Shown in pieces: positions 612 to 26,668 of a stretch of DNA of 27,212 nucleotides (positions within the stretch are counted from its first letter, which is position 1; every line of letters starts with the position of its first letter). The DNA lies in the IMG/VR virus record IMGVR_UViG_3300025132_000227, positions 1-27,212 of that record; one strand, written 5' to 3'. The notes under the pieces are model-generated. The model was not told the origin of the DNA and ran no database searches. It saw only the letters and a program-made list of their open reading frames with translations. The stretch is from a virus. A program made the position numbers and the translations under genes.

Positions 612-2897
612 ATGGCTAAAACTAAAATAGGCACAAAATTATTAGCGGATAATTCAATTTCCACAGCGAAATTACAGAATTCTTCCGTAACAAGAAGTAA
701 AATTCAATCAGGTTCTATTCAGGTCGGTCACATGGACTTGTTTCAAGCACCGTCGACCCACGTAGAACTCTTAGACAACGACGTATTGATCATTTCTGCA
801 TCAAAGGGCAAGAATGGTGGTATGAAAACCATCCTCTTTTCAGCGCTCAAAGCTGGCGTTTCAGCATCGAACGCTGCAGTAGGCGATCCAGGAAAACTAC
901 AATTTCACGCACCTGGCGGAACTAATGCTATGGGGGCAGTAAAGCACTTCATTTCTGATGGCACTGACTTAACTGCATCTAATGGTGGTGTTTTACACTT
1001 CGCCGCAGCAGGTGCAAGTGGATCTCACGGTTCAATTCAGGCAGACTCGGCCACGTCACTTACAATCACGGCAGACACAACGTTAAAGTTCAAAATAGAT
1101 GGTTCAAACGAATTAGAACTAAATGCAAGTTCATTGAAACCATCGTCCAACGGCGGACTTGATTTGGGTTCAACCAGCAACCTGTATCAAAACGTATACG
1201 CCAACTCTTTCTCAGGTTCTGGCACCTCAACTTTTCACAAGATTGATGCCGACCAGATCGACGCAGCAAGAGTGGACGTTACTCATACAATTTCTGGATC
1301 TTTTGCCCAAATCAACACATTGAACGCTCATGACGTAAATTTGGGGAATGCAACAGTTACGAAGATAACAGGATCAGGAACTGCTGCTTTCCACAAGATG
1401 GATACCGACCTTGCCGCGATTGACAGAGTACAGTCTCTCGTAGTCACGGGTTCAGGTCTTGCGTCGATTCACAAATTAGACGTAGACAAGGCTACAATTG
1501 ACAGAGTTGTATTGGTTAATATGACAGGTTCTGCCACCGCACAACTTCATCAGGTAACGTCTGATAAAGGTACGTTTGGTACTGTTGTTGCAACTAATTT
1601 AACATCTTCTGGTACTTCACAGTTTCACAATGTACAAGCATCTGTGGTCACTGGTACAGTCGGTAAATTCAATAAATTAACTGTTGATACCTTGAATGCC
1701 TTTGTTTACAAATCAACCATAACAACAAAAGAACATTTTGAAGTTGAAGACAAACAAATTATTGCAGCAGTATCAGCGTCAGCAGGTGTAGCTACAGAAG
1801 GGGCAGGTCTTCAGATCGGCGGCGCCGCAGGCAGCGGTTCCGCAGGTATTGCGAGCATTGTCCTTGGTGACGCAGGTGGCGGCGCTGGTACCGACCTTCT
1901 CTTTAAGATCGGTTCGACTCAGGCAGCATCAATAACCGCAACTGGAGCGCGCAAAAGCGGCGCAGCATCTTTTGGCGTTACTGGCACCTTGTCTGCTTCT
2001 ATTGGTATTTTCCATGAAATTGACGTCAACAAGACCCTCAAGGCATCTTCCTTCTCTGGATCCAAAGGTGAGTTCCACCTTGTAACTGGTTCGAACGTAG
2101 AGGCGCATGTATTAACTGCCAACAGAGGTGCTTTTAGGACTCTATCAGGTTCTACTGCTACTTTTCAATCTGTATCAGCATCTGCAGCGTCGTTCCACAC
2201 ACTTGGCGGCGCCAATGGCATAAAGAGAGCGTCAATAGCTACAATTTCAGGATCCAGCGCAACCTACACAACCGTTTCGGGCACTACAGTGCAAGTGCAT
2301 CAACTGGAAGCAACTCGCTTAAATGTGAAAGATCTCGATGTTAGCAGCGTTACTGGATCGGGCACTTCAACGTTCCACAACCTGCAGGTTACAACGCAGT
2401 TGTCGGGGGCTTCTTTGCAGGCTCATACAATTGATGTCGATAAATTGACAGTCAATGACATTCAATCAACTGACATTATCCACGCTGTAAACCTTCACGA
2501 TGATATCGTGCGTACCACTACTGGTAATGGCGGTCTTAATTTTGCCAACGGCGTACTGAGTGTAGGAACTAGGAGACAGATCTTTAGTCGTACATCGGTT
2601 GCAAATCGAAGCGCAGCGCCAACTGATCTTTCGAGCGATGGGTTGTTTACTACGGCATCTCTTGTTGTTGATTCACTCGGTAGAAAGACGATCATGTTAT
2701 CAGGGTCTGAGATGGTTTATTTGAACGGTGTTCTCTTGATTCCCGCACCAGCAGGACAGGTACCACCAGTTGACGGCGACTATACGATTAATCATTCTGC
2801 GACTCCGACAACAATTAAGTTGCATGAGACTCTCGCAATGGATGCTGACGACATTCTAGTTGTCTCGTTCTTGTCTGGTACGGTAACACCTGCCTGA
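612..2897 (+). CDS. Fibre-like virion protein 1 (repeat-rich, 761 aa)
   Basis: Starts at ATG 612, 11 bases after an aaaggag ribosome site. The N-terminus has the KIGTKLLAD...STAKL pattern common at the start of marine phage fibre and appendage proteins. Residues about 90-200 contain Gly/Ser/His-rich segments. Residues 201-356 hold about six repeats of roughly 26 residues with a (T/S)GSG...FHK.D.D...IDRV core. A Gly/Ala-rich block follows (about 395-430), then more degenerate TGS repeats to about 650. The C-terminal ~110 residues (IFSR... to AMDADDILVVSFLSG) form a separate domain shared with the next gene. Such Ser/Thr/Gly-rich, Cys-free repeats usually form trimeric beta-structured shafts. 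The protein is a paralogue of the product of 2979-7163 but lacks its duplicated 223-residue insert. It is probably a tail fibre or other receptor-facing appendage; which one cannot be told. Confidence 0.7.
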   Translation: MAKTKIGTKLLADNSISTAKLQNSSVTRSKIQSGSIQVGHMDLFQAPSTHVELLDNDVLIISASKGKNGGMKTILFSALKAGVSASNAAVGDPGKLQFHAPGGTNAMGAVKHFISDGTDLTASNGGVLHFAAAGASGSHGSIQADSATSLTITADTTLKFKIDGSNELELNASSLKPSSNGGLDLGSTSNLYQNVYANSFSGSGTSTFHKIDADQIDAARVDVTHTISGSFAQINTLNAHDVNLGNATVTKITGSGTAAFHKMDTDLAAIDRVQSLVVTGSGLASIHKLDVDKATIDRVVLVNMTGSATAQLHQVTSDKGTFGTVVATNLTSSGTSQFHNVQASVVTGTVGKFNKLTVDTLNAFVYKSTITTKEHFEVEDKQIIAAVSASAGVATEGAGLQIGGAAGSGSAGIASIVLGDAGGGAGTDLLFKIGSTQAASITATGARKSGAASFGVTGTLSASIGIFHEIDVNKTLKASSFSGSKGEFHLVTGSNVEAHVLTANRGAFRTLSGSTATFQSVSASAASFHTLGGANGIKRASIATISGSSATYTTVSGTTVQVHQLEATRLNVKDLDVSSVTGSGTSTFHNLQVTTQLSGASLQAHTIDVDKLTVNDIQSTDIIHAVNLHDDIVRTTTGNGGLNFANGVLSVGTRRQIFSRTSVANRSAAPTDLSSDGLFTTASLVVDSLGRKTIMLSGSEMVYLNGVLLIPAPAGQVPPVDGDYTINHSATPTTIKLHETLAMDADDILVVSFLSGTVTPA
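1212..1679 (+). repeat. Six degenerate ~78-bp (26-residue) tandem repeats
   Basis: Repeat units begin at residues about 201, 228, 253, 279, 305 and 331 of the fibre-like protein, each opening with SGSG/TGSG or a close variant and most followed by (F/I/L)H(K/Q/N). Three consecutive units are exactly 26 residues apart. The DNA is diverged, so these are old protein repeats, not recent DNA slippage. They probably form a repeating beta shaft. Confidence 0.7.
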
Positions 2898-2978: not shown

Positions 2979-5900
2979 ATGGCAATAACAAAAATAGGTA
3001 CAAAATTAATTGCAGATTTAGCAGTTACAACCACAAAGTTAAGTTCAAGTATACCAAAAGTACAAACACTGATTGCGAGTTCCATAAAAAGAAATAAAAT
3101 TCAATCAGGATCTGTCCAGCCAGGACACATGGATCTTTCATTAACTGGCGCAGGGCAAAACCATGTCGATATCTTGGATGATGACATGTTTATATTTGGT
3201 GATAAAACCAAGTTTGATGCTAACAACAACCCTCAAGCGGGTACTCATGTTAGAACGTTTAAATTTTCAAGTTTAAAAACCGCTCTATCTCTTTCTAATG
3301 CGGCAAGAGGTGAAGTCGGCACAGTTCAGTTTAAAGCAACTTCAGCACCGTTTGGTTTTGATGGCGTAGCAAGTTTACTTTCAGATGGTACTAACTTGAC
3401 AATGTCTAACGGCGGCAAAGTTCATTTTTCCGCAGTCGGCGCATCTGGTTCTCACGGTTCGATATTTTCCGATGCTGTAAAATCCTTGACAATTGAAGGA
3501 GATACTCAAATAAATCTTCACTCAAGCGCTTCAGTACAAGGACACCAAGCACAAAGTGTTGTTTTAGAAACTGGATCTTTGAGACCAATCACGAGACCTG
3601 CAGTCGCTGTTCAACCAGGGACTTATAAATTTCAATTTACATCTGGATCTATCGGTAGAAATCGTATTGACTCTTCTGGAGGGTTGAAAACCTACGGACC
3701 TCTGTCAAACGGTAATGCGCAGATGATCTCTGTGTTGAGTACTGGATCTGGCGCAAGTCTTGGTAAGGAGTGGTACTTATTTTACCTTAACGAGGCGGCA
3801 TCTGCTTCACCACTTCCAGTGAGTGCGAGTTTGAACCTTCAATACAACGATGCTGGGTTGCCAAAGAGAAGGCACGACATTCCAGTAGAGGCACATAGTG
3901 GAATCACCGATTGGCGTGATGTTGTTGCGAATCTCCGTGCTGCAATGCACACAGAGTTAAACACTAACGCCGATCTTGCCACAGTTACTTTATCCACTGC
4001 AGCAAACATTAATGCTACTGCTTCGATCACAGTAACTTACAAAGCAGGCACAATGCAGGGAGGTATTGTCGTCGGTACTGGCGTTCAAGGTATTGGAACT
4101 GCAGGTTCTGCATTTGGTCGAGGCACTGCCATTCAAGGGCATGGGTCTCCATTTGCATCTACACCACCATCAACTCAACCAGCGCCAATTGAAGGACAGT
4201 TTACACAAACGAATCACGACAACAAGCGCGCTGGTGAACCAGATACGTCTGGTGGCGAAGTAATCGTTGTGAGTTCTGGTTCTGCCGCGATAGCAGCAGA
4301 TAGTGTATGGTTAGACCTTGGTGGATCATCGAATCAATTTAGAAACGTGAAAGCAACCGCTTTTTCGGGTTCGGGTACAGATTCGTCGAACGCTGAAACA
4401 TTTATTCACAGAATTTCAGTTTCAGGTGCCGCTGATAGTAAGATTACCGTTGCTAGAATTAGACTAGAGCAAGGTTCTAAAATCTTGTCTGCTTCTGCGG
4501 CGACATTCAATACTTTCGACGGCCACAACGCTGCTGGAGTAGCTGTAATGTCTTTTACTAATGTTAGAGACGCAGTGTCGGCACCTTTGGGCGCTTCTGA
4601 TAAACCAATGCTTACGGCATCACATGTTAACTCTGCTTACCATAAAATAACTGCTTCGGTAGGTTTTATCGACAGGTTATCTTTTGGACCTACATTAACA
4701 GCGTCAGCCTTTGGACAAAAGAAAGAAGGCAGTAATTTCCACGAACATGGTGGTATAGTGCTTAGTAGTTCCATGACTCAGGTCAAGGGAAACAGAGATG
4801 TTAGAATTGCTTCTGGAAATGCTATAAGTGCCAGTATTGGTGACATTTTTACACTTGTTGGACAGGGCGGAGGCACCTATGTTGCAACAATCGCAAGTAT
4901 TGCAGGGAATAAACTTCACTTCAATACAGTAAACGCTATTGGTGCTGCAACAGCGCCTTACACTTTAGCAAAGATTGAAAAGGTGTCAACACTACACAAG
5001 GTAGACGCAGACAAGGGAACTATTGATAGAATACATGTAAACAGTGTCGTTACTGGGTCGGGTTTATCTACTCCGAGGTTCTTGCGAACTGAAACGTCTG
5101 GTGTCTTCGGTCGTATAGTTTATGGCGACTATAGAGTGACTGGTGGATTGACCCCAGCAAACGGCATGGACGTGGAAGCGAAACTTCACAATGCAACTAC
5201 GAGAAACTTATCTGCATCAGTTGGTAAGTTCCAGCACATGAATGTTGGTGGACCTGTAATTGCAAGAAGATTTACTTCTAATAATACCACTACGGAGCAC
5301 TTTGAATCAGTTGCAGACCAAATTATTGTTGCTGTCAGTGCATCATCGACAACCGCAGATATTGTTGGAGCAGGATTGCAGATAGGTGGCACAGCAGGAT
5401 CAGGTTCGACAGGTATTGCTAGTATTCTATTGGGCGATATCAATCGAAATGAAGCAGGCAAGATCTTGAACTTTAATCTTGGATCGACCAGAGCGTTTTC
5501 AATCAGTGGATCGAACCCAGCACTGGTAAGACTAGGTGTAACGGGAACTTTGTCAGCGTCAATCGGCGTTTTCAACACTTTGGAGATGGCAACAGCGATG
5601 TCTTCTAGCATAGTCTCAGGTTCTAAGTTGGATTTCCAGATTCTATCTGCCTCTGCGGTCTCTGTTCACGAGATTAAGGGTAACCGCCTCAATGAACCTG
5701 CTGTTGGTGCAAGTGACCTGGTGATATCTGGTTCGACATTTACGTATCAGTCAGTCTCTGGTTCAGACTTGGCTGCACATACCTTAGATGTGAAGCGCGC
5801 CACTCGCATTGATACAATATCAGCGGCCGGTGTGACTTCGACCATGCAGTATCACTCCATAACTGGATCAACCCTTCAAGCAACATTGTTGACGGGTAAC

Positions 5901-7163
5901 AAAATAGGTAATGCTTCGCATGGAAATGCAACTGTAACTAGTTTATCCGCCTCTAAGGGACAGTTTGTGAACGTGAACGTGCGAACGGTGACGTCTAGTG
6001 CATCATCAATACAGTTCCATACAGCAGACACAGACAAGATGACAGTCAGTGAGATTGTATCTACTGATGTTATTAAGTCTCAACACTTAAATAACGATAT
6101 TGTTACCAACGCTAGTGATGCTCACGGTGGTATTGTTTTTGCTAACGGCAAGTTAAGCATAGGTTGGAAGAGAAGAATATTCAGTAGATCTTCTAAGAAG
6201 ATCACAAATAGATCTCAACCAACGCAGGGTACGGGATCACTGTACACGACGTGCTCTCTATTAGAAACCCAAGTTGTATCAGGGTCAGAGAGAGTCTTCT
6301 TTAACGGTCTGCAGTTGATACCTTCAGATAACAACCGTTTCGATGGAAAGGGAGACTACGCTATTGATCACAGCCATGGCGGCGGTTTGTCCCCAGGTGT
6401 CTACAAATTTCAATTTACATCTGGATCTATCGGTAGAAATCGTATTGACTCTTCTGGAGGACTGAAAACCTACGGACCTCTGTCAAATGGCAATGCGCAA
6501 ATGATCTCTGTGTTGAGTACGGGTTCAGGAGCAAGTCTTAATAAAGAGTGGTACTTGTTTTACCTCAACGAGGCAGCATCCCCTTCACCACTTCCAGTGA
6601 GTGCAAGTTTGAACCTTCAGTACAACGATGCTGGATTACCAAAGAGAAGGCACGATATTCCAGTCGAAGCGCACAGCGGAATTACTGACTGGCGTGATGT
6701 TGTTGCAAATCTTCGCACTGCAATGAACACAGAACTGAACACTAACGCCGACCTTGCAACGGTTACTCTTAGTACTGCTGCAAATATCAACGCTACTGCT
6801 TCAATCACAGTAACCTACAAAGCAGGTACTATGGTAGGCGGCATTGTGGTTGGTACTGGCGTTCAAGGTATTGGACCTGCAGGTTCTGCATTTGGTCGAG
6901 GTACGTCCGTTCAAGGATTGGGGTCTCCATTTGCATCTACACCACCATCAACTCAACCAGCGCCAATTGAAGGACAGTTTCAGCAAGCGAATCACGACGT
7001 CAAGCGCGCTGGTGAACCAGATACGGGTGGCGGTGAAGTGATCGTTACAACTTCTGGTTCTATAACCAAGGCTGGAACAGGTATTTTCTTGAGTCCGAAC
7101 TTGGCAATGGATACAGATGATGTTCTAGTGGTACAGTACCTCTCGGGATCACATCAATTCTAA
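2979..7163 (+). CDS. Fibre-like virion protein 2 with duplicated insert (1394 aa)
   Basis: ATG 2979 follows an aaaaaagggag ribosome site. The N-terminus (KIGTKLIAD...TTKL) and C-terminus (IFSRSS... to AMDTDDVLVVQYLSG) match fibre-like protein 1, as do several internal blocks (FSGSG; the HFE...ADQIIVAVSAS segment; VTGTLSASIG; LNNDIV...FANGKLSIG). It is nearly twice as long because a 223-residue module occurs at residues 213-435 and again at 1139-1361, about 94 percent identical by eye. One copy sits where the paralogue reads SLKP-SSNGG-LDLG, the other between the GDY(A/T)I.HS strand and the final AMD.DD(V/I)LVV strands. The module has a helix (ITDWRDVVANLR) between beta-rich parts and a Pro-rich linker (STPPSTQPAP). 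It is probably a long tail fibre or appendage subunit. The insert's fold and role are unrecognised. The protein has no transmembrane segment or cysteine clusters. Confidence 0.7.
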   Translation: MAITKIGTKLIADLAVTTTKLSSSIPKVQTLIASSIKRNKIQSGSVQPGHMDLSLTGAGQNHVDILDDDMFIFGDKTKFDANNNPQAGTHVRTFKFSSLKTALSLSNAARGEVGTVQFKATSAPFGFDGVASLLSDGTNLTMSNGGKVHFSAVGASGSHGSIFSDAVKSLTIEGDTQINLHSSASVQGHQAQSVVLETGSLRPITRPAVAVQPGTYKFQFTSGSIGRNRIDSSGGLKTYGPLSNGNAQMISVLSTGSGASLGKEWYLFYLNEAASASPLPVSASLNLQYNDAGLPKRRHDIPVEAHSGITDWRDVVANLRAAMHTELNTNADLATVTLSTAANINATASITVTYKAGTMQGGIVVGTGVQGIGTAGSAFGRGTAIQGHGSPFASTPPSTQPAPIEGQFTQTNHDNKRAGEPDTSGGEVIVVSSGSAAIAADSVWLDLGGSSNQFRNVKATAFSGSGTDSSNAETFIHRISVSGAADSKITVARIRLEQGSKILSASAATFNTFDGHNAAGVAVMSFTNVRDAVSAPLGASDKPMLTASHVNSAYHKITASVGFIDRLSFGPTLTASAFGQKKEGSNFHEHGGIVLSSSMTQVKGNRDVRIASGNAISASIGDIFTLVGQGGGTYVATIASIAGNKLHFNTVNAIGAATAPYTLAKIEKVSTLHKVDADKGTIDRIHVNSVVTGSGLSTPRFLRTETSGVFGRIVYGDYRVTGGLTPANGMDVEAKLHNATTRNLSASVGKFQHMNVGGPVIARRFTSNNTTTEHFESVADQIIVAVSASSTTADIVGAGLQIGGTAGSGSTGIASILLGDINRNEAGKILNFNLGSTRAFSISGSNPALVRLGVTGTLSASIGVFNTLEMATAMSSSIVSGSKLDFQILSASAVSVHEIKGNRLNEPAVGASDLVISGSTFTYQSVSGSDLAAHTLDVKRATRIDTISAAGVTSTMQYHSITGSTLQATLLTGNKIGNASHGNATVTSLSASKGQFVNVNVRTVTSSASSIQFHTADTDKMTVSEIVSTDVIKSQHLNNDIVTNASDAHGGIVFANGKLSIGWKRRIFSRSSKKITNRSQPTQGTGSLYTTCSLLETQVVSGSERVFFNGLQLIPSDNNRFDGKGDYAIDHSHGGGLSPGVYKFQFTSGSIGRNRIDSSGGLKTYGPLSNGNAQMISVLSTGSGASLNKEWYLFYLNEAASPSPLPVSASLNLQYNDAGLPKRRHDIPVEAHSGITDWRDVVANLRTAMNTELNTNADLATVTLSTAANINATASITVTYKAGTMVGGIVVGTGVQGIGPAGSAFGRGTSVQGLGSPFASTPPSTQPAPIEGQFQQANHDVKRAGEPDTGGGEVIVTTSGSITKAGTGIFLSPNLAMDTDDVLVVQYLSGSHQF
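3615..4283 (+). repeat. 669-bp in-gene duplication, copy A
   Basis: Matches 6393-7061 in phase at a constant offset of 2778 bases with no net indel. Two stretches are identical between copies: 3627-3682 (56 bases) and 4143-4202 (60 bases). The DNA between them carries many, mostly synonymous, differences. It encodes residues 213-435 of the long fibre-like protein. Confidence 0.9.
6393..7061 (+). repeat. 669-bp in-gene duplication, copy B
   Basis: Second copy of the segment at 3615-4283, encoding residues 1139-1361. It lies inside the C-terminal domain shared with fibre-like protein 1, splitting two strands that are separated by only about 8 residues in that paralogue. Confidence 0.9.
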
Positions 7164-7303: not shown

Positions 7304-10300
7304 ATGTCCACAAAGAGATTTAAGTTTGTTTCACCAGGTGTATTCCTAAATGAAATTGATAATTCAAGAGTTCCAGCAGTACTAGATGCCGTTGGACCTA
7401 CCATCATAGGTAGGACCAGAAAGGGTCCTGGCATGATTCCACTAACCGTTAATTCGATGGCTGAATATGTCGAGGTTTTCGGAGAACCAGTTCCAGGCGG
7501 CCGCTCTGATGAAGTTTACAGAGATGGCAATCTTGTTTCGCCACAGTATGCTGGTTTTGCTGCACAGGCATTTTTAAGAAACAGCGGACCAATTAACGTT
7601 GTTAGACTTCTAGGCACCAAAGACACCAACGCTACCGCAGCAGGCGTAGCAGGTTGGAAGTTACAAGGATCCAGAACGTTTAGTACACACAACGGACAAG
7701 CAAAGGGACTTCCATCGTCCACCGACAGTGCAGTTTATGGATTGTACCTGTTCTCTACAGGTGGTATAGACCCGAGACAGGGTTATAGGCAGGGTGGTGC
7801 TGGTACTTATAATACCGTCGCCGCTACTTCTAAAACAACCTTAACTGGTACACTTGCCGCAGTTTGGTATATGGAGAATTCTGCTATTATCCTCTCAGGT
7901 AACCTGGCTAGATTAGATGCTGATGCAACATCTGCAAGACTTCAGGGTTCGACACAAGGTGCAACGTTTACAATCACTGTGACTCACGAAGCGAACACAT
8001 TGGAAGCAGACGATAGAATTACAATCACAACTTCGAAGAATAGCACAATCATACTAAACTGCAACCTCAACACGCCAACGGCTGGCGCTGTGGACAGTTT
8101 AAGTGGGAACCAAACAATTAATTTTGACCGCCAGGGATTAGCTGATGCAGGATCGACTAACGAGCACATTGCAGCAAGCATAGCAGATGTTCTTAAAAAG
8201 CATGACGAAGTTCAGGATGCTACGTCTACCGCTGGTGGCGTTGTAACGGTGACTATGTCAAATGAGGGCACAACTACAGTCGCCGCATCAAACACCACAG
8301 GAAACGCAATGGCTGTGAGTGCGGTGTCCACCGCTGCTGCAGCAGACAGAGTGAACGCAGCAGTAACAGGATCTAACGTACTAGTTGAATCTACAAATGC
8401 TGGTACGTTTGAGTTCGTTGCTTACGTATATGATAAAGGTTCAGACCAGAATGCAGACGCTGATGTCGCAGCAAAGAACGAAAGAACAAGCGGCATCACC
8501 GCAGGTAGAAAGGTTGTGTTCAACTTTGATAGAAATTCAGACAAATACATTAGAAAGGTTTTCAATACCAACCCAATGTTGTTGAATAGTGAAACTACAC
8601 AGGATGATGCAGTGGAAAAGTATTGGTTGGGCGAAACCTTTGATAGGTTTGTAAAAGATCATCACGGTCGCGGTTCAGATAACAAACTGCACCAGGGTGT
8701 TTTGGGAACACCAGCAGCCGGCGGTCTCTGCGCTGCGCTGATCCCACTGCACGCACAGTCGGACAATCCTTATGATGATAGAACAGTCTCTCACCAGGAC
8801 TCAGTAACTAACTGGATAGTTTCACAAGATGTGACTGCCGATAGTAACGGATACCAGGTAAACAAAATGCAGAAACTATTTAAGTTTTGCGGTATCAACG
8901 ATGGTGGATGGAACACTAGACATACAAAAATCAGTATTACAGATTTGAAATTAGGAACAGAGGTTGATCCATATGGAACTTTCACTGTTTTAGTCAGAAG
9001 AATCGATGACAATGACGGTCGCCAAGTAGTTCTTGAAAGATTTTCACAGTGTAGTTTAAATCCTAATTCTAAGAACTATATCGCAAGAAAGGTAGGTGAT
9101 CAGTACAGAGAGTGGGATGAGGCCGACGGACGCTATAGAATCTATGGTGAGTTTCCTAATCAGTCTTCTCTCTTTAGAGTTGAGACACACCAAGATCTTC
9201 AGGGTGGTGTTCTTGATCCTTCATTGCTTCCATTTGGATTCTATGGAGCACCAAGAATTAAGACAGGCGTATTTCAGACAAACAGTGCCCAAAAAGACTC
9301 TGTCGGTCTAAGAGGGCACGCAATGTGTGAGGCAAGTGATGTGGCTATAGATATTGACGGCACTTACAGCGGCGGTTTCCGTCCTATTGGTGGACACACT
9401 GGTGTAAATTCGTTTGGTATTTTTGGACTTCCAGCAGGAGCGACAGGGTCACTACTTTATCCAACACTGCCGCTTAGGTTGACTTCCTCCGCAGAAGGAT
9501 TGTCTAACCCAAAGAAGTCTTGTTTCGGCGTATCCACCTACAGGAGTCCTACAGACACAAGATTTGATGAGTCCTTTTATGATACGACTAGAAGATTGGG
9601 TCGAGCATATGTAAGTACAGACAAGTCTACTGCCACAACCAATGCAGAGATTTCTCAATACTTTAGTTTAGATGACTTGATTGCTTTCTCCAAGACTGGT
9701 TCAGCGCCTGATATTAGCGGATTGGCTCAAGGCGGATTGTTAGCGAAAGACATTGGAGGTTTTGTATACGTATCTGGATCTAGAAGAACAGGTGTTTCAT
9801 ATACTGCAATTAACTCGTCGTACAAAGAACTTGTAAAGTCTGGATTTGCTAACTTTACTGTACCTGTGTATGGCGGTTTCGATGGGTTCGACGTGAAAGA
9901 GAAGGACCCAGTGTCCAATCAGGCAATGTCTGGTGACGAAACTACGAGTTATGAGATCGCTACATTAAAGAGAGCGCTTGACACAGTGGCAGATCCAGAA
10001 GTTATTGAAATGAATGCTTTGGTTGCACCTGGTATAACCAACACCAGAATTACAAACCAAATGATTCGAGTTTGCGAAGACAGAGCAGATGCTTTAGCAA
10101 TCATCGATATCGAAGACGGCGGATACATTCCAGACACAGAGGCCAAGACCTCTTTCAAGACTAGAATTCAAGACTCTAAACCTAGAGAGGCTATCGCAAA
10201 CCTTGAGCAGCGAGGATTAAACTCTAGTTACGCTTGTGCGTTCTATCCTTGGGTAAAGGTTGTAGATAGTTTCTCAGACCAGCAGCTTTGGGCACCGCCT

Positions 10301-10870
10301 TCAGTTGCTGCTTTGGGGACCTTCGCATCAACAGAAGCTTCTTCGGAACTTTGGTTTGCGCCAGCAGGATTTACTAGAGGCGGACTCAGCGAAGGCGCTG
10401 CAGGTATACCAGTTTTGGCGGTTTCACAGAGAGTATCCTCAAAGGAGAGGGATGAACTGTATGAGGCAAACATTAACCCAATCGCACAGTTCCCAGCAGA
10501 GGGCATTGTGGTATTCGGTCAAAAGACTTTGCAGGTTACGCCCTCTGCACTTGATAGAATTAATGTAAGAAGATTGATGATTTTTGTCAAGAAAGAAATT
10601 TCAAGAATTGCTGCAAGACTCTTGTTCGAACAGAATGTTCAAGCAACTTGGGATAGATTTAGAGGACAGGTGGAACCCTTCCTTGACAGTGTTAAGTCTA
10701 GATTTGGTTTAACGGATTTCAAGGTGATCCTTGACTCCACAACCACAACCCCAGACTTGATTGATAGAAACATTATGTATGCAAAGATTTTCTTGAAACC
10801 AGCAAGATCAATTGAATTTATCGCCATTGACTTTGTTATCACAAATTCAGGCGCATCATTTGAGGAGTAA
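7304..10870 (+). CDS. gp18: Contractile tail sheath protein (gp18 family), oversized
   Basis: The sheath surrounds the tail tube and contracts to drive it through the host envelope. The N-terminus SPGVFLNEIDNSRVP is the classic start of the sheath family. The C-terminal ~100 residues (MIFVKKEISRIAARLLFEQN..., ending EFIAIDFVITNSG) match the conserved polymerisation domain that links neighbouring subunits. At 1188 residues it is far longer than T4 gp18 (659). One extra domain is visible at about residues 206-365: a Thr/Ser/Ala/Asn-rich, beta-type segment (TFTITVTHEAN, a helix near 287-300, VVTVTMSNEG) that interrupts a strand pair between AIILSGN and TFEFVAYVY. More insertions probably lie between 420 and 900. 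The ribosome site aaaaggag lies about 9 bases before the start. The tube gene follows 43 bases downstream. The identification is secure. Confidence 0.95.
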   Translation: MSTKRFKFVSPGVFLNEIDNSRVPAVLDAVGPTIIGRTRKGPGMIPLTVNSMAEYVEVFGEPVPGGRSDEVYRDGNLVSPQYAGFAAQAFLRNSGPINVVRLLGTKDTNATAAGVAGWKLQGSRTFSTHNGQAKGLPSSTDSAVYGLYLFSTGGIDPRQGYRQGGAGTYNTVAATSKTTLTGTLAAVWYMENSAIILSGNLARLDADATSARLQGSTQGATFTITVTHEANTLEADDRITITTSKNSTIILNCNLNTPTAGAVDSLSGNQTINFDRQGLADAGSTNEHIAASIADVLKKHDEVQDATSTAGGVVTVTMSNEGTTTVAASNTTGNAMAVSAVSTAAAADRVNAAVTGSNVLVESTNAGTFEFVAYVYDKGSDQNADADVAAKNERTSGITAGRKVVFNFDRNSDKYIRKVFNTNPMLLNSETTQDDAVEKYWLGETFDRFVKDHHGRGSDNKLHQGVLGTPAAGGLCAALIPLHAQSDNPYDDRTVSHQDSVTNWIVSQDVTADSNGYQVNKMQKLFKFCGINDGGWNTRHTKISITDLKLGTEVDPYGTFTVLVRRIDDNDGRQVVLERFSQCSLNPNSKNYIARKVGDQYREWDEADGRYRIYGEFPNQSSLFRVETHQDLQGGVLDPSLLPFGFYGAPRIKTGVFQTNSAQKDSVGLRGHAMCEASDVAIDIDGTYSGGFRPIGGHTGVNSFGIFGLPAGATGSLLYPTLPLRLTSSAEGLSNPKKSCFGVSTYRSPTDTRFDESFYDTTRRLGRAYVSTDKSTATTNAEISQYFSLDDLIAFSKTGSAPDISGLAQGGLLAKDIGGFVYVSGSRRTGVSYTAINSSYKELVKSGFANFTVPVYGGFDGFDVKEKDPVSNQAMSGDETTSYEIATLKRALDTVADPEVIEMNALVAPGITNTRITNQMIRVCEDRADALAIIDIEDGGYIPDTEAKTSFKTRIQDSKPREAIANLEQRGLNSSYACAFYPWVKVVDSFSDQQLWAPPSVAALGTFASTEASSELWFAPAGFTRGGLSEGAAGIPVLAVSQRVSSKERDELYEANINPIAQFPAEGIVVFGQKTLQVTPSALDRINVRRLMIFVKKEISRIAARLLFEQNVQATWDRFRGQVEPFLDSVKSRFGLTDFKVILDSTTTTPDLIDRNIMYAKIFLKPARSIEFIAIDFVITNSGASFEE

Positions 10871-10880
10871 AAACAAATTA

Positions 10881-10899
10881 AACACTATTTAATAGTGTT
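10881..10899 (+). promoter_or_regulatory. Leader hairpin with CACTATTTA before tail-tube gene
   Basis: Perfect inverted repeat AACACTA-tttaa-TAGTGTT: 7 base pairs and a 5-base loop, ending just before the aggaggg ribosome site (10900-10906). It has no T-tract after it, so it is not a normal terminator. It may be an mRNA-processing or stabilising stem that raises tube over sheath output, or a palindromic operator/promoter element. Confidence 0.5.
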
Positions 10900-10913
10900 A
10901 GGAGGGTTGTATA

Positions 10914-11537
10914 ATGACAACGCAAAGATTTTGGTCTGATGCATCTATCGAGCCAAAGAGAAAATATAGATTTTTGTTATCGTTTAATGGTGTGCCACAA
11001 TGGATTGTAAAGACAACCACAAAGCCAAACTTTACAGTTTCAGAATCAGAGCATAATTTTATTAATTATAAGTTTTACTATCCAGGAAGATTGGAATGGG
11101 AAGAGATCAGCATGACTCTTGTAGACCCTGTAGATCCTGATGCATCACATACGATGTATCAGTTGATTGAGAACTCGGGTTACGTTGCTCCCCATAACTT
11201 TTTGAATGACCCGCAGGCTAGAGGCGAGGCAAGTAACGTAGTTACCTTCTCAAAGAAGCGTGCAGTTGATGCTGTTGGTGGTAGAGTTTATATTCATTCT
11301 ATTGATGAGAATGGTGCTCCAATTGAGACTTGGACTCTTTACAATCCTTGGATCAAGAATGTGAACTTTGGTGATTTGGATTACGAGTCTGATGAGTTGG
11401 TCAATGTTGAATTGACTCTTAGATACGATTGGGCAGATATTGAAACGAAGGTCGCACCTGCTGTTGATTTGACAAGAGCAGCGAGATTCGCAGCAACGAG
11501 AGTTACAAATAGAGATAATAGAGCACCTGGTGTTTAA
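10914..11537 (+). CDS. gp19: Tail tube protein (gp19 family)
   Basis: Forms the stacked hexameric rings of the inner tail tube. The N-terminal part KYRFLLSFNGVPQWIVKTTTKPNF and the following FYYPGRLEWEEISMTLVDPVDP are typical of gp19-type tube proteins. At 207 residues it is somewhat longer than T4 gp19 (163). A beta-rich core is followed by a C-terminal LRYDWADIE strand and a basic tail. It starts at ATG 10914 with a strong aggaggg ribosome site 7 bases upstream. It lies directly after the sheath gene, as in T4, and its stop codon is embedded in a terminator, so tube and sheath messages probably end here. Confident call. Confidence 0.93.
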   Translation: MTTQRFWSDASIEPKRKYRFLLSFNGVPQWIVKTTTKPNFTVSESEHNFINYKFYYPGRLEWEEISMTLVDPVDPDASHTMYQLIENSGYVAPHNFLNDPQARGEASNVVTFSKKRAVDAVGGRVYIHSIDENGAPIETWTLYNPWIKNVNFGDLDYESDELVNVELTLRYDWADIETKVAPAVDLTRAARFAATRVTNRDNRAPGV

Positions 11538-11558
11538 TACAAAAAAGTGCTCTTTTTT
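11520..11558 (+). terminator. Terminator overlapping the gp19 stop codon
   Basis: AGAGCAC (11520-11526) pairs with GTGCTCT (11547-11553) and six T residues follow from 11553. The 20-base loop contains the TAA stop, so ribosomes finishing gp19 would cover the left arm and could weaken termination. This would link tube translation to read-through into the baseplate genes. Confidence 0.65.
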
Positions 11559-11589
11559 AGTTTATAATAGTTTAAGTAAGTGAGGTTTT

Positions 11590-12444
11590 ATGAGTAGAAA
11601 TTCCAACAGGGTATCAAAACCCGTAGAACCACAGGCGGAATCGGCCCCTGTGGAGAACACCAACATTACAGATGTAACAAGGCGGACGGCAAATACTGAA
11701 TTTGTCGAATTGCCGTCTAGAGGTGTGTTTTATCCGAAGAATCATCCTTTGCACGGACAAGAAGTGATAGAAATAAGATTTATGACTGCAAGAGATGAAG
11801 ATATACTGACTTCCCCGACTCTTTTGAGCAAGGGTTTGGCAGTAGATAAGTTTGTCCAAAACATACTAGTTGATCAAAGCATTAGGGTTGATTCTTTGTT
11901 GATCGGCGACAAGTCAGCAATCTTGATTGCAGCAAGGATTACTGGATATGGTCCAGATTATGAGGTTTCAGTGACTTGTCAATCTTGTAATACTGAAAGC
12001 GACTTTGATTTTGATCTTTCAGATTATACGAAGTATTTCAACAAGTATGAAAAACCAGAAGAGTTTACTCTTGAGAGTGATGGAACTTTTTCAGTGACTT
12101 TACCAAACTCAGGTGAGACAGCGGTCGTTAAACTGCTAACTTCTCTTGATGAACAAAAACTTGCTAAGAAACAAAAAGCAAGGCAAAAGAATAAATTAGC
12201 AGATTCACCAACCACAGATATGCTAAAGATGTTCATTGTATCTGTGGATGGTACTTCTGACCCAGCGGGTTTGAATGAAAAGATTATGAATATGTCAGCC
12301 AGGGACTCAAGATATTTGAGAAAGGCTTATGGCGATCTTGTCCCAAATGTAAAGATCGTAGAAAATTTTGAGTGCATGTTTTGCGGTGCGGAAACCGAAA
12401 TGGAGGTCCCCCTGGAGGCCCGATTTTTTTGGCCTGACTACTGA
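11590..12444 (+). CDS. gp26: Baseplate hub protein, gp26-like, with two CxxC pairs
   Basis: Resembles the T4 gp26 / 'T4 bacteriophage base plate protein' family, part of the hub-assembly pathway. Visible features: a disordered N-terminus (1-35), FVELPSRGVFYP (38-49), IRFMTARDEDIL (62-72), and a middle domain in which C130-x2-C133 lies in a strand pair. Near the C-terminus, C262-x2-C265 is followed by METP-type strands and the ending ARFFWP, a pattern I associate with this family in marine phages. The two CxxC pairs could bind one zinc ion together. At 284 residues it is longer than T4 gp26 (208). The start at ATG 11590 has agtgagg upstream. The last codons run over a T7 tract and the next gene begins 4 bases after the stop, so the two are probably translationally coupled. 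Confidence 0.7.
   Translation: MSRNSNRVSKPVEPQAESAPVENTNITDVTRRTANTEFVELPSRGVFYPKNHPLHGQEVIEIRFMTARDEDILTSPTLLSKGLAVDKFVQNILVDQSIRVDSLLIGDKSAILIAARITGYGPDYEVSVTCQSCNTESDFDFDLSDYTKYFNKYEKPEEFTLESDGTFSVTLPNSGETAVVKLLTSLDEQKLAKKQKARQKNKLADSPTTDMLKMFIVSVDGTSDPAGLNEKIMNMSARDSRYLRKAYGDLVPNVKIVENFECMFCGAETEMEVPLEARFFWPDY
12424..12430 (+). other. Seven-T run at the gp26 / gp51-like junction
   Basis: The run lies five codons before the gp26-like stop. In the frame of the next gene the sequence is open from at least 12368. A +1 slip of a Phe-UUU codon on this run, or loss of one U by transcript slippage, would fuse the two proteins. Seen: the run and overlapping open frame. Inferred: any use of it. 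Confidence 0.3.
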
Positions 12445-12448
12445 TTAT

Positions 12449-12622
12449 ATGCTTCAAGTTCATGAGCAGATGTTCTATTTGATACAACACGGTAATTGGA
12501 ATTATTTTGATTTGTATGATTTACCGATTAAAATAAGATCGTGGTTTGTTGATAGACTGTCAAAGCACTTTGAAGATAAAAATAAACAAATAGAAAAATC
12601 GAATTCTAAATCTGGAAGGTGA
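12449..12622 (+). CDS. Small gp51-like baseplate assembly protein
   Basis: From ATG 12449 a 57-residue protein; the same frame is open back to ATG 12368, giving 84 residues. I prefer 12449 because the family-like part (VHEQMFYLIQHGNWNYFDLYDLPIKIRSWFV) begins there and the upstream part only shadows gp26. There is no clear ribosome site directly before 12449; ggagg at 12413 is 30 bases away. Re-initiation after the gp26 stop, 4 bases upstream, or frameshifting is therefore likely. The HEQ...(Y/F)D.Y.(L/M)P...R.(W/F) pattern recalls short proteins annotated as gp51, the baseplate hub assembly catalyst, next to gp26 in T4-like phages. The remainder is a charged helix. It is small, soluble and not expected in the mature virion. 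Confidence 0.5.
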   Translation: MLQVHEQMFYLIQHGNWNYFDLYDLPIKIRSWFVDRLSKHFEDKNKQIEKSNSKSGR

Positions 12623-12649
12623 TAATTACTATACGGAGAAACATTTATC

Positions 12650-12958
12650 TTGAAGAAGCAAGAAAAAATTATTATAGATTTCACACAGGTTAATGAAAGT
12701 TTCCTGATCATGATGGGCGCACAGTTGAGACTCGTTCTCAACGCGCTTTTCACAGGAGAGTTCTTTCCAGTATCTGTACGGGGCACGCGTGCTCAGGTTG
12801 ATTCTTTCACAAGTGCACTCGCAAGCGAAAAGAGGTATTTATCTTCATTTGCGCAGCATGGACTGAACAACCCAAAAACACTAAAAGATAAGTTTAAGTT
12901 AAATCGTGCAGTGAAATCTTTTGAGCGCGATACGGGGTTGGTTTGGCCGTTTAAATAG
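12650..12958 (+). CDS. Small conserved-looking protein of the tail operon
   Basis: A 102-residue protein using a TTG start at 12650, with ggag at 12635-12638 (11 bases upstream, rather far). The next ATG in frame is about 20 codons on and would cut off the first beta strand, so TTG is preferred. The second half has a basic, helical pattern: FPVSVRGT, a helix SFTSALASEKRYLSSFAQHG, then NNPKTLKDKFKLNRAVKSFE and a final TGLVWPF. I recognise this kind of short protein near gp26/tape-measure genes in marine myoviruses but know no function. The next gene starts 10 bases later with aggggac as ribosome site. A role in tail or baseplate assembly is inferred from position only. Confidence 0.55.
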   Translation: MKKQEKIIIDFTQVNESFLIMMGAQLRLVLNALFTGEFFPVSVRGTRAQVDSFTSALASEKRYLSSFAQHGLNNPKTLKDKFKLNRAVKSFERDTGLVWPFK

Positions 12959-12968
12959 GGGACTTTAG

Positions 12969-15506
12969 ATGGCTAATAAGACTATTGAAAAATTGGCAAA
13001 AATCATTGCCAAACCTAATCTTTCAGAGGAGGACATGGATGATCTTAAGAATGGACTATCCTATGTTTTTGAACAATATCGTAAATTTTCGAACCGTACC
13101 AAGTCTTACAAAGAGATAATTGAAAATCACAAAAACAAGAGAAGTAAACTTGAAACACTAAAAGAACTTTACGATGATGAAGTGGATTTTATGAATGCTC
13201 GTCAGAGCTTGGATAAAAGTCAACTTAAAAACCTACAAGATAGGTTGCTACAAAACCTAACAACCAATGAACTTTCCGAGGCAGAATTAAGGCACCTTAA
13301 AAAAACAGTTGAAATCCTTAAAAAGAGGATTGCAATACAGGACAGGTTTAACCAAGGTCTCGCAAAAGGTGTTGCTGTTAGCGAGCAGTTGCTGCAAACC
13401 ACTCTTGGAATATCAAACGAATGGGGAGATGTTGGTATAAAAGGTGCCATTAAGGGTTTTGGACAAGGGATAAAAAATAACCTAACTGCAACCAACGCAC
13501 TTGCAACGATAGTAAGTTTTACATTTGGACAACTTATGAAACTGGACGAAACAAGATCGGAGTTATTTACCACAACAGGACTGCAGATGACCGTGGGTGA
13601 AATCTCGGGTATCACAAAAGACTTCGCTGATGTGTTTGGACAACAGGCACCACAGGTAACTAACCAGGTCCTCTCATCGGTGCTAACAAATAATAGAAGT
13701 TCACAGATATTCTTTGACGCATTCGAATCGGACTCGCTGCAAACAATAGGATTTCTAACAAATGTAGGAGTATCTTCGGATGCATCAGCAACTTTGTTTG
13801 GTCAGATGCAGTCTTCTCTTGGAATGTCTAGAGCAAAAAGCACAGATTTTTTAAAACAAATTTACAAATTCAACGAAGACGTTCTAAAAGTTCCGCCTGA
13901 AATGTTATTTAGAGAAACAGCAGAGCAAATTCCCTTCTTGTCAAGGTATGGTAGGAATTTTGAAACAGTCTTTCTTCGACTTGCATTAAACAGTAAAGAT
14001 ACAAACCTTGCTTTAGGTGAATTAATAAGTCTGGGAGATAGTTTGGACTCCATAGAAATGAGTGGACAAGTTGGAGGTAAGCTGAATGCGCTTTTAGGCA
14101 AGAACGTTTTTAACGTTGGAAAACTTCTTTCACTAGAGTCGGATGAAAAAATCATTCACATTGGAGAAAAACTAAGAGAGTACGAGCAGCAACATGGCAA
14201 GATAGGTTCGTACACCATGAGAACAGTTGCCCAAACTTTACAGACAGAGGTCAGCACAGTAAGGAAAGCGATGCAAGGTAACGTAGTGGGTGCGATAGCG
14301 GATTTAGAGGGACTTCCAGACCCAGGCGAGGGGAATGGTGATATAGTTGCAGGTCTGAAGAAAGAGCTTGGTCAACAGCAGCGTTTACAAAACGCTGCCG
14401 CTAAAATTGGATTAGTATTTGCGGATAAGATAGCGAATAATAAATTTCTTGTTAATACTACAAACAAAATTATGAACAATCTTGATATTGTTTTGCCTCT
14501 TGCAATCGCTGGTGTCTTTGGGTTGAAGGCATTTCGAGCAGCGACTCTAGCGATAGGTTCTCCAGTTTACCCTGCAAACACAGTAGACATGGGCATGGGA
14601 ATGGATGGGCCTGGCAGCCGACGCAGCAGCAGAGGCGGCGGTGGCGGTACTCAAGGTAAACCAGGCAGCGGAGCAAGATTTTCTGAAAAACCAGCAAGAT
14701 TTGGCACGGGTCGCAACCAAATGTATGTAGGACCACCACCTGGCACAGCACCACCACCTGGCGCAGTTCCTGGACCCCCTGCTCCCACCGCCAAACCTGG
14801 GTTCTTTTCTAGGATGGCTACATCTGCAAAAAATGTAGTATCAAGGTCGGGACCTCTCAAGACCGCAGTGAGAATTATAAAAGGTGCAGGTGGCACTCTC
14901 CTGAAAGGACTTACTTCAATACCTGGCATTGGCGCAATAATTGAGTCCATTTTCACAGTCGGTGATATTAGAAGCATGATCGCCAGCGGTATAACAGGCA
15001 GTCAATTGTACAGAACTGTAGGGGCCCGAGTCTTTGAAGCAATCGGTGGAGTCATTGGTGGTGCTGGCGCAGCCGCGCTTGTGCAGGCACTCAACATTTT
15101 ACCTGGACTAGGTGTCCTCGCCGCACCTCTCGCCTACATTTTAGGAGATATGTTGGGGCGATTCTTGGCAAGAACACTCGCTGAAACTTTGTCCCCCTCT
15201 ACTGTGGGATCTTTTGGCAAGTTTATACTAGACATGTTTTATGACGAGAATGAGATAGCGGGATCACCAGTAGGGACGACTGCATCTGGACGAAAGAAGT
15301 TTGCAACAACAGGAATTACAAAACAATTCGTACAGTTGAACAACGATAGACTAAGAAAGAAAACGTTCCAACCAGTCGAGTCGGGCACGGATCCTATACT
15401 TGCAGGACTTTCAGACTTGTTAGATATGATTGATGAACTGGACGCTAAGTCAAATCAAGCAGTTTTGCAAGTAGGTCTTACGAGAGTGGGGATGACAACG
15501 TCATAG
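12969..15506 (+). CDS. Tape-measure-like tail protein 1 (845 aa)
   Basis: Probably sets tail length and is threaded inside the tube; in T4 the equivalent is gp29 (590 aa). The N-terminal 130 residues are highly charged and predicted coiled coil. LLQTTLGISNEW (141-152) is followed by a Gly-rich amphipathic stretch (155-200). The middle is mainly helical. Hydrophobic segments lie at about 504-523 and 650-725 (runs such as AIGGVIGGAGAAALV), separated by a Gly/Pro-rich, low-complexity linker (about 540-610) with GPPPGTAPPPGAVPGPP. Hydrophobic segments plus coiled coil are typical for tape measures, which may act in membrane passage of DNA. It is paralogous to the next gene, which begins 10 bases after its stop with ribosome site agggag. 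The role is inferred from architecture and position. Confidence 0.6.
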   Translation: MANKTIEKLAKIIAKPNLSEEDMDDLKNGLSYVFEQYRKFSNRTKSYKEIIENHKNKRSKLETLKELYDDEVDFMNARQSLDKSQLKNLQDRLLQNLTTNELSEAELRHLKKTVEILKKRIAIQDRFNQGLAKGVAVSEQLLQTTLGISNEWGDVGIKGAIKGFGQGIKNNLTATNALATIVSFTFGQLMKLDETRSELFTTTGLQMTVGEISGITKDFADVFGQQAPQVTNQVLSSVLTNNRSSQIFFDAFESDSLQTIGFLTNVGVSSDASATLFGQMQSSLGMSRAKSTDFLKQIYKFNEDVLKVPPEMLFRETAEQIPFLSRYGRNFETVFLRLALNSKDTNLALGELISLGDSLDSIEMSGQVGGKLNALLGKNVFNVGKLLSLESDEKIIHIGEKLREYEQQHGKIGSYTMRTVAQTLQTEVSTVRKAMQGNVVGAIADLEGLPDPGEGNGDIVAGLKKELGQQQRLQNAAAKIGLVFADKIANNKFLVNTTNKIMNNLDIVLPLAIAGVFGLKAFRAATLAIGSPVYPANTVDMGMGMDGPGSRRSSRGGGGGTQGKPGSGARFSEKPARFGTGRNQMYVGPPPGTAPPPGAVPGPPAPTAKPGFFSRMATSAKNVVSRSGPLKTAVRIIKGAGGTLLKGLTSIPGIGAIIESIFTVGDIRSMIASGITGSQLYRTVGARVFEAIGGVIGGAGAAALVQALNILPGLGVLAAPLAYILGDMLGRFLARTLAETLSPSTVGSFGKFILDMFYDENEIAGSPVGTTASGRKKFATTGITKQFVQLNNDRLRKKTFQPVESGTDPILAGLSDLLDMIDELDAKSNQAVLQVGLTRVGMTTS

Positions 15507-15516
15507 GGAGTAGTTA

Positions 15517-17682: not shown

Positions 17683-18503
17683 TGGGATTCAAAAAACTAA
17701 CATCGAGTGATGTCGATCCAGTACAATCAGCGATGGAGGCGCAAGGATATTTAATAGAAATTGCGCATATTGGTTCTGGCAAGACGGCTACGTTTCCTGC
17801 TTGGTTAACAGACTACGCCGATAACTACACCAGCGAGTGGAAATCCGAAAGAATTTTTGGTAGAAATGATCCGATTGGATCTTTCGTGGGGGTATCTAGA
17901 AAAATAAGTGTTAGTTTGGAAATTCCATCTTTTAGTGTCCAGGAGGCAAAAAATAACCTTCATCAAGTTGAACATCTAATGGCAAATCTTTATCCCTCTT
18001 ACAAGCCACGCGGTGGCGTAGATGTTCTAGAGGCATACCCTCTCGTAAAGGTTAGGTTTTCCAATTTGATTAAAAAAACTGGAGCAAAAGCCGACGGTGA
18101 TGTTGCGGGAGGTTTGACAGGTTGGATAGAAAATGTTTCATACTCACCAGATTTAGAAGCGGGATTTCATCACCCTCCAGGAGGATCGGAATCCACCACC
18201 ACGAGTGCCTCTGGTGGCGAATATGAAGGCGCAACCAGTCACACGTTTTACCCTAAAATGATTAACGTTTCTTTTTCTTTAAGCGTCGTGCATGAACATA
18301 CATTAGGGTGGACGGGCCCAAAATGGTTGGGCCCAGGCAATAAGCACAATTACACAGGTATTGCATTGAGTTCAGATGAAAAACATGACGCATCGGTGTC
18401 TCCTGGTGCATCACGAGTTAGTAGACTTGGAGAAGAAGATCGAGATACAGTCACTAAAAATTTTACAAAGAACGTTAAAAACGTCTTAGCACCAGGGGTA
18501 TAG
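17682..18503 (+). CDS. Tube-cap / baseplate-tube junction protein, gp48/gp54-like
   Basis: Starts at GTG 17682, overlapping the previous TAG by one base, with ggagg 6 bases upstream. Visible pattern: FPAWLTDYADNY...W (38-53), IFGRNDPIGSF (58-68), a strand-rich SRKISVSLEIPSF, a helix with NNLHQVEHLMANLYPSY (91-107), PLVKVRFSNLI (120-130), GLTGWIENVSYSPD (144-157), then a Gly/Ser/Thr loop (166-185) and YPKMINVSFSLSVVHEHTLGW (190-210). The beta pattern resembles tail-tube-like folds such as T4 gp48/gp54, which join baseplate to tube, and the position after the tape measure and before gp53 fits. The assignment rests on context and fold impression, so it could be another tube-related baseplate protein. 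Confidence 0.5.
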   Translation: MGFKKLTSSDVDPVQSAMEAQGYLIEIAHIGSGKTATFPAWLTDYADNYTSEWKSERIFGRNDPIGSFVGVSRKISVSLEIPSFSVQEAKNNLHQVEHLMANLYPSYKPRGGVDVLEAYPLVKVRFSNLIKKTGAKADGDVAGGLTGWIENVSYSPDLEAGFHHPPGGSESTTTSASGGEYEGATSHTFYPKMINVSFSLSVVHEHTLGWTGPKWLGPGNKHNYTGIALSSDEKHDASVSPGASRVSRLGEEDRDTVTKNFTKNVKNVLAPGV

Positions 18504-18508
18504 AAGAT

Positions 18509-18859
18509 ATGTCAAGATACACACAAAGAGCAGAGTTGATTAACTCTTCTAGGCAATACGCACATAAATTACGAGAACTAAATGTAAAAAATATCACTCA
18601 CTTTGTCACACCAAAATTTGGTAAAATATCCCAAGAAATGGTAGACATGGTTGAATCTGACTTAGTTCGTTGGGGAGTGCAAACAAAGTTTTATAAGTTA
18701 GCGCACGAATATTATGGTGATTCAAAGTTATGGTGGGTGATTGCATTTTTTAATAACATGCCGACAGACTTTCATGCTAAGATCGGAGATGTAATTTTGG
18801 TTCCAAGAAATTGGCAAGATGTTTATAATTTAGTAGCAGACCCAAGTGCAGAGGAGTAG
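18509..18859 (+). CDS. gp53: Baseplate wedge protein, gp53/LysM-like
   Basis: A 116-residue protein. The N-terminal half is polar (INSSRQYAHKLRELN, HFVTPKFGKIS). Residues about 60-101 have the pattern FYKLAHEYYGDSKLWWVIAFFN...IGDVILVP, which matches the LysM-like part of phage baseplate proteins such as T4 gp53 (a wedge protein that helps close the baseplate ring). The YYGD..LWW.IA..N core and the terminal G..(I/L)..P are the main evidence. The gene starts 5 bases after the preceding stop and is followed 2 bases after its own stop by the next gene, so it is part of the same message. An alternative is a gp25/LysM baseplate protein of Mu/P2 type, but the shape fits gp53 best. Confidence 0.65.
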   Translation: MSRYTQRAELINSSRQYAHKLRELNVKNITHFVTPKFGKISQEMVDMVESDLVRWGVQTKFYKLAHEYYGDSKLWWVIAFFNNMPTDFHAKIGDVILVPRNWQDVYNLVADPSAEE

Positions 18860-18861
18860 TC

Positions 18862-25528: not shown

Positions 25529-26668
25529 ATGGCAAAAGTAACAAAAATGAAACCAGGAGGTTTGTCCACGAAGGACATTATAAAGTCACTCAACAAGTCT
25601 GCTGGCGGAGTTGTTGCTTATAATCTCAAGGAGGAGAACCCAACCCAGGTTAAGGAGTGGATTCCAACTGGATCCCGATGGTTAGACTCCATAGTTTGCA
25701 AGGGTCGACTTGCTGGGATTCCAGTTGGAAAGATTTCTGAGATTGCGGGGTTAGAAGCAACGGGCAAGTCTTTCATGGCAGCACAGGTGGCGGCAAATGC
25801 CCAGCAGATGGGTTTTCGCGTAGCGTACTTCGATTCTGAATCAGCAATCGATCCTGACTTTCTTGCAAGAGCAGGATGTGATCTTGAAGACGAAGAGAAC
25901 GGGCTGATTTATGTTCAGGCGCACTCTGTTGAAATGGTGATGGCTACTATTGAGGATCTTTTGAAGATGCCTCAGAAGTGGTTGTTCATTTGGGACTCTC
26001 TTGCCCTCACCCCATCGGAACACGACTTGGAATCGGACTATAATCCCCAGTCATCCATGGCAATGAAGGCGCGAGTGTTGTCCAAGGGCATGCCAAAGTT
26101 GGTGCAACCAATTGCAAACGCTGGAGCAACTCTTTTGGTGTTGAACCAGTTGAAGACCAATATTACAAGGTCTCCTTCTGAGGCGCTTACGACTCCATAC
26201 ATGACACCTGGAGGAAAGACTCTGCCATACTCTTACTCATTAAGGGTTTGGTTGACTGGACGTAAGGCAAAGGCCTCATTCGTTACGGACGAAAACGGAT
26301 TTAGGATCGGATCTGAGGTGAAGTGCAAAATTGAGAAGTCCCGCTTTGGATCGACGGGTAGGACTTGCAACTTCAAAATTCTTTGGGGTGACTCAGACAT
26401 CGTTGGTGTTCAGGATCAAGAGAGTTGGTTCGATGCAATTCAGATTTCTGAGAACCTGAAGCAGTCAGGTGCCTGGTATGCCCTTGTTCATGAGGATGGT
26501 ACAGAAGAAAAATTTCAGAGGGCGCATTGGGTTTCAAAATTGCAAGACGAAAGATTCAAGAAAAGGGTTTTGCAAATCATGGACGATGATGTTATTATGA
26601 AGTTCAGTAACAAAACAGGAAATGCTTCTGATTTTTATGATCAGGAAGATTCCCCCACCAAAGACTGA
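25529..26668 (+). CDS. uvsX: UvsX, RecA-family recombinase
   Basis: An ATP-dependent strand-exchange protein for recombination-driven replication and repair. At 379 residues, close to T4 UvsX (391). Walker A is GLEATGKS (74-81), the catalytic Glu is in FDSES (E104), and Walker B is FIWDS (153-157, D156). The DNA-binding loop region is near 160-185, and NQLKTN...MTPGGK (206-230) corresponds to loop L2 and its flanks. A mixed C-terminal domain ends in an acidic tail (DQEDSPTKD). The start ATG 25529 follows gaggtgat, 11 bases after gp32, so the two are co-transcribed, and UvsX filaments must displace gp32 from single strands. A strong terminator follows 17 bases after the stop. Secure at family level; UvsX rather than bacterial RecA is chosen because of the neighbours and the short L2 context. 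Confidence 0.92.
   Translation: MAKVTKMKPGGLSTKDIIKSLNKSAGGVVAYNLKEENPTQVKEWIPTGSRWLDSIVCKGRLAGIPVGKISEIAGLEATGKSFMAAQVAANAQQMGFRVAYFDSESAIDPDFLARAGCDLEDEENGLIYVQAHSVEMVMATIEDLLKMPQKWLFIWDSLALTPSEHDLESDYNPQSSMAMKARVLSKGMPKLVQPIANAGATLLVLNQLKTNITRSPSEALTTPYMTPGGKTLPYSYSLRVWLTGRKAKASFVTDENGFRIGSEVKCKIEKSRFGSTGRTCNFKILWGDSDIVGVQDQESWFDAIQISENLKQSGAWYALVHEDGTEEKFQRAHWVSKLQDERFKKRVLQIMDDDVIMKFSNKTGNASDFYDQEDSPTKD

Follow-up and report, generated by a model that had tools for sequence, protein, structure and literature searches.

The window analysed here (27.2 kb; IMG/VR record IMGVR_UViG_3300025132_000227, positions 1 to 27,212) comes from an uncultured T4-type phage and has genes for sheath, tube, baseplate, SSB and a UvsX-like protein. 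Directly upstream of its tail sheath gene lie two fibre-like paralogues on the plus strand: g1 (612..2897), encoding 761 amino acids (aa) with MAKTKIGTKLLAD at the start and a shaft of 26-residue spacing, and g2 (2979..7163; 1394 aa), the two being 37% identical over 544 aligned positions. g2 harbours two copies of a 223-residue module that is absent from g1. Copy 1 occupies site 1 (3615..4283, plus strand; g2 residues 213-435) and copy 2 occupies site 2, within the C-terminal domain (6393..7061, plus strand; residues 1139-1361). An earlier note on this DNA had aligned the two segments over 669 bases with no net indel, and this alignment was reproduced; the protein identity of about 94% given there was borne out as near-identity, although the measured value is slightly lower (207/223 aa, 92.8%; 579/669 nucleotides, nt). 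Both copies are in frame within one open reading frame, and 30-base bins inside the module edges have 17-30 identical positions, against 6-12, the chance level, outside them. No direct repeat in the window ranks higher than this pair, whose 300-base ungapped core is 88% identical, far above chance.

The 90 nucleotide differences between the copies fall 19, 10 and 61 at codon positions 1, 2 and 3, and nonsynonymous divergence (dN, 0.057) is low relative to synonymous divergence (dS, 0.51). The two copies have therefore diverged while under purifying selection, and the third-position bias rules out diversifying selection between them. A short contig of an uncultured virus might be suspected of containing a single real copy that was assembled twice; such an artefact is next to inconceivable, since the differences are concentrated at third positions, the two copies have distinct flanks and the same two-site layout recurs in independent contigs.

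Comparison with g2 confirmed that both insertion points are closed in g1, site 1 at SLKPSSNGGLDLG (1131..1169, plus strand) and site 2 at GDYTINHSATPTTIKLHETLAMDADD (2775..2852, plus strand). The module is inserted within a host domain, with both of its ends at one loop and the host strands DY.I.. and ..IFL.. flanking it. The earlier note had allowed for loss from the shorter gene, should the paralogues of related phages all carry both modules; none of the 11 distinct full-length g1 proteins of the relatives carries it.

Module slots in related phages

Relatives, which make up a clade of uncultured T4-type phages, were found by scanning viral contigs with the module, the fibre genes and the sheath (they are designated here by L numbers, and W is the window), and the downstream tail sheath gene (7304..10870, plus strand; phrog_23 tail sheath, E 4e-73) served as phylogenetic anchor. 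Two modules were present at the identical two sites in nine lineages, namely W, L003, L008/L009, L015, L019, L021/L028, L022, L023 and L037, a count that takes in every syntenic g2 readable at both ends, excluding the L007/L042 and L011 types. Site 1 follows a KP-containing segment and precedes W(L/F).LG, and site 2 lies inside (D/A)Y.I(D/N)...GGG ... GT.(I/V)F(L/I). These sequences show that both slots are old and common to the window and eight other lineages. The description of a module "inserted twice" thus holds for a discrete, portable unit that sits at sites closed in the paralogue and is copied between sites, but not for the sites themselves, which are not fresh.

Other arrangements were found in the remaining types. 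In the deeper-branching L042, two modules that are 90% identical to each other lie at other points of g2 and site 2 is empty; L007, also deeper-branching, has four modules at other g2 points, two of which are 81% identical. The g2 gene of L007 (4133-9565) encodes 1810 aa and contains, besides its four modules, numerous repeats of the I..GS(V/I) type that look like a beta-helical shaft. In the six contigs of the L011 type, sites 1 and 2 of g2 are both empty, with the closed configuration seen in g1. The search of other sites that had been proposed thus turned up further points of the same gene (L007 and L042) but no other gene: the module was not found outside g2 in 80 sheath-anchored loci, nor when the fetched loci and the window were scanned in six frames. 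In two lineages, L008 (177-5708) and L011 (10371-14360), the g2 protein is extended at its N-terminus by about 540 residues that precede a retained TKIG motif; by sequence impression, these read as a beta-propeller followed by a ZU5-like domain, with no Pfam match. In six more distant contigs (L074, L075, L076, L081, L088 and L101), the sheath is preceded by a fibre-like gene that has a comparable C-terminus (DSDD...QY) but no module.

Exchange of module sequence between slots, phages and paralogues

Of the nine lineages with two slots, seven have copies that are only 34-51% identical within one phage. In a tree of 26 modules, the sequences divide into two deep groups, made up mostly of site-1 and mostly of site-2 copies respectively, with interleaving labels that force at least five site changes; monophyly of the site-1 copies was rejected by the approximately unbiased (AU) test (p-AU 9e-93). 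In L022 the module groups are reversed between the sites, and in W, L003 and L037 both sites are occupied by the second group. The copies of the window form a sister pair (support 100/99), with the site-1 copy of L003 adjacent and its site-2 copy elsewhere, and dS between the g2 flanks of W and L003 reaches 2.1-2.6 (saturated), as compared with 0.51 between the window copies. The simplest reading is that one window slot overwrote the other long after both existed, so that the copies would be nearly identical because of this overwriting and not because the slots are new. Their grouping with the L003 site-1 copy favours site 1 as the donor, without settling the direction.

Similar events can be read in three other comparisons, in each of which a homologous domain was exchanged between otherwise similar proteins. 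L037 and L023 share 95% aa identity in the sheath and mostly 74-98% in the flanks, whereas their site-1 modules match at 40-52% (43% identical); the L037 site-1 copy is 85% identical (aa) to the site-2 copy of the same phage, and this slot too was overwritten. Between L019 and L035, sheath and tube DNA is mostly 86-100% identical and the site-2 module 43-76% (59% in protein), an allele replacement. Conversely, L019 and L015 share a site-1 module at 90% nt identity (dS 0.17) within g2 genes at 58% (dS 2.4), which shows transfer between divergent phages.

Slots can also be emptied. In L011 (g2 at 10371-14360), residues 706-745 around the emptied site 1 are 80-81% identical (nt) to the phage's own g1, as compared with 38-61% to other g2 genes, and the sheath tree nests the L011 type among filled lineages. 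Taken together, these two results indicate that site 1 was most likely emptied by copying (gene conversion) from the paralogue. The same observations bear on the view of the earlier note that the module was recently inserted, whereby a site-1 module would have been copied into a previously empty site 2 in the window lineage. The 92.8% identity of the copies, their sharp edges and the closure of both sites in g1 would all be expected from a recent duplication. Nevertheless, eight other lineages (L003, L023 and L022 among them) have a module at the very same point of site 2, and W branches outside these lineages in the sheath tree, so that the slots must have been filled before that split or else repeatedly at identical points, and the known empty sites are those of the nested L011 type, where site 1 is a g1-like replacement. 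We therefore regard a recent duplication as quite unlikely, and recent insertion at two new sites was not upheld; overwriting between old slots better accounts for the near-identity.

Conserved and variable parts of the module and its predicted fold

The module constitutes an unannotated domain family in the libraries searched. For 20 modules, Pfam and PHROGs gave no reliable family, the BACON models of Pfam no match up to E 0.1, and neither Pfam nor PHROGs any intein, HNH or other nuclease domain. There was likewise no match among PDB sequences up to E 5, with either a single sequence or a 20-row profile, and no reliable module match in annotated phages (tblastn) or in 84,980 prokaryote species genomes. 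Matches to Pfam Read-through (14.9-23 bits, cut-off 27) and to SWM_repeat were below cut-off and were not used. A discrete unit with precise edges, several sites and horizontal spread could be an intein-like or homing element that propagates selfishly. We consider this very improbable, given the lack of a nuclease or intein match, the confinement to one gene and the purifying selection between copies; moreover, the module begins with PG(T/V)Y and ends with SGS, which are not intein-type splice residues.

Mean pairwise identity among the 26 modules is 52-65% in three conserved parts, namely the first 12 residues, residues 85-143 and the last 11. In contrast, the 56 residues 157-212 are hypervariable, with 18-28% mean pairwise identity as against 38-65% elsewhere. 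In copy 1 this stretch corresponds to 4083..4250 (plus strand), and 48 of its 56 residues are identical between the window copies. When the module residues were modelled alone (four module sequences), AlphaFold2 gave a predicted local distance difference test score (pLDDT) of 33, which lends no support to the self-folding proposed in the earlier note; in context (g2 1038-1394, 39 sequences), a beta-helix-beta core reached 85-90 and most of the variable stretch 31-46. The module may be exposed and may fold independently.

Structural alignment with VIA-align gave Z of about 4-6.7 over some 90-118 residues, with a root-mean-square deviation of 2.4-4.5 A on a model of moderate quality. The leading rows match the extent of the module almost exactly (model 100-325), and most of them are internal segments of contractile-tail proteins, together with FliD: 9mt4_Q 81-181 (Z 6.7), 9ki1_1 100-213 (6.4), 9f4b_FD 85-194 (6.0), 5fhy_A (5.7), 5iv5_AF 81-188 (4.9) and 8env_A 90-210 (4.8). 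All scores are below Z 8, and the weak likeness of the predicted fold to FliD and to the insertion domains of proteins of contractile tails is hence a lead and not a classification; with Foldseek alone, neither PDB nor BFVD yielded a match at E 0.001 or below. Chain 5iv5_AF, a 218-residue T4 baseplate chain that from its fitting length we take to be gp11, aligns at residues 81-188 with the whole module, a weak, fold-level likeness. To our knowledge, gp11 does not swap its finger domain between slots. The fingers of T4 gp11 clamp gp10 (PMC3004832). In phage XM1, the sheath has an insertion domain reported to resemble domain D3 of the flagellar cap protein FliD (PMC10457771), which fits the resemblance of our model; the model aligns from first to last residue with FliD D2-D3 and with inner stretches of phage sheath and baseplate proteins. 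It differs from the XM1 case in that Z reaches only 4-6.7, there is no sequence similarity and the host protein is fibre-like, not a sheath.

These data leave room for a different purpose, in which the module would be a structural spacer or stabilising domain without a variable contact, and its swapping a neutral recombination between repeats. The low dN/dS between copies is in line with it, as is the weak likeness in fold to insertion domains that have a structural part in sheath and baseplate proteins, and L011-type phages manage without the module. However, residues 157-212 are far more variable than the remainder, and phages that are otherwise near-identical differ by the replacement of a whole allele, features that are usual in host-facing parts. 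We see the spacer as a serious alternative, though the less likely one.

Proposed role of recombination in varying the fibre-like g2

We believe that the module is probably an inserted surface domain of the fibre-like g2 that is shuffled by homologous recombination. This degree of confidence applies to the recombination-shuffled inserted domain, from which the structural spacer differs only in purpose; the surface or receptor role is an inference. That g1 and g2 are virion fibres is suggested by the runs of 26-residue spacing in the g1 shaft and the adjoining sheath, tube and baseplate genes. Several points weigh against our interpretation. In Pfam and PHROGs, g1 had no match to an annotated fibre family and g2 only a chance-level one. 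The g2 1038-1394 model has a mean pLDDT of 58, which is of moderate quality, dS values above about 1.5 are saturated and give lower bounds only, and W is on a long branch in both the sheath and g2 trees. When W and L003 site-1 copies were forced together against their site-2 copies, the cost was 15 log units but not significant (p-AU 0.13), and the overwriting step in the window consequently rests on the wider comparison. Finally, the evidence consists of sequences of uncultured phage contigs.

In the mechanism that we propose, g2 has two ancestral slots and its neighbour g1 none, and homologous recombination would exchange module sequence from slot to slot, from phage to phage and with g1. 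A slot can thereby be overwritten by the other (as in the window), have its allele swapped or be erased with g1 as template. The conserved edges would fit the loop of the host protein and make variants interchangeable between slots. Close to the C-terminal edge, about 56 residues held between conserved parts would be free to diverge as the likely contact surface. The module may contact the host or neighbouring structures, and the likely purpose would be to vary the exposed surface of the appendage. The copying could plausibly be performed by the phage's own UvsX-type machinery, for which the UvsX-like recombinase of the window (25529..26668, plus strand; phrog_97, E 2e-56) is a candidate.

Elsewhere in the window, a tail tube protein (10914..11537, plus strand; phrog_4542, E 3e-27) follows the sheath. 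The window sheath (1188 aa) has about 145 extra residues (199-343; window 7898-8332) lacking in the sheaths of relatives (about 1,027-1,043 aa); a distant module copy there was unsupported (hhalign probability below 1%, no sequence relation to the module). From the baseplate hub gene to a DNA polymerase-like gene (12969-22718), large open reading frames (845, 721, 273, 886 and 399 aa) are without PHROG match.

Small laboratory-selected duplications in the tail fibre adhesins of T4-family phages widen host range; these also involve a small duplicated domain in a fibre gene, whereas here a two-slot layout is conserved across a clade. Domain exchange in phage tail proteins is well known, whole domains having been exchanged recently between similar tail fibres and between distant phages (PMC10684548). 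Whole-domain exchange is common to both systems, but in g2 both slots of a single gene are occupied by one module family, which is homogenised between them and can be erased by copying from a module-free paralogue. The BACON repeats of crAss-like phages are also tail-associated, and their number has grown through duplication in some lineages and, in others, through single domains acquired horizontally (PMC6949934); BACON copies are tandem, whereas about 700 residues separate the g2 modules, which occupy two fixed points and have no BACON Pfam match. We found nothing on concerted evolution in phage tail fibres in the open-access literature. What sets g2 apart is the fixed two-slot layout, the overwriting within a gene and the module-free neighbour as a template for erasure.

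A bolder idea, to which we give a small chance, is that the two genes act jointly to generate variation by recombination, a paralogue without the module and two interchangeable slots allowing the phage to overwrite, swap or erase an exposed domain reversibly. A population would then hold more than one state of its surface, in a manner akin to antigenic variation by gene conversion. The sharing of slots, their overwriting, the replacement of alleles, horizontal transfer and paralogue-derived erasure are all legible in a few contigs, which makes these phages a natural test case for the domain-by-domain reshaping of a phage appendage. If the module is host-facing, it would mark the variable part of the virion surface in phages without a cultured member.

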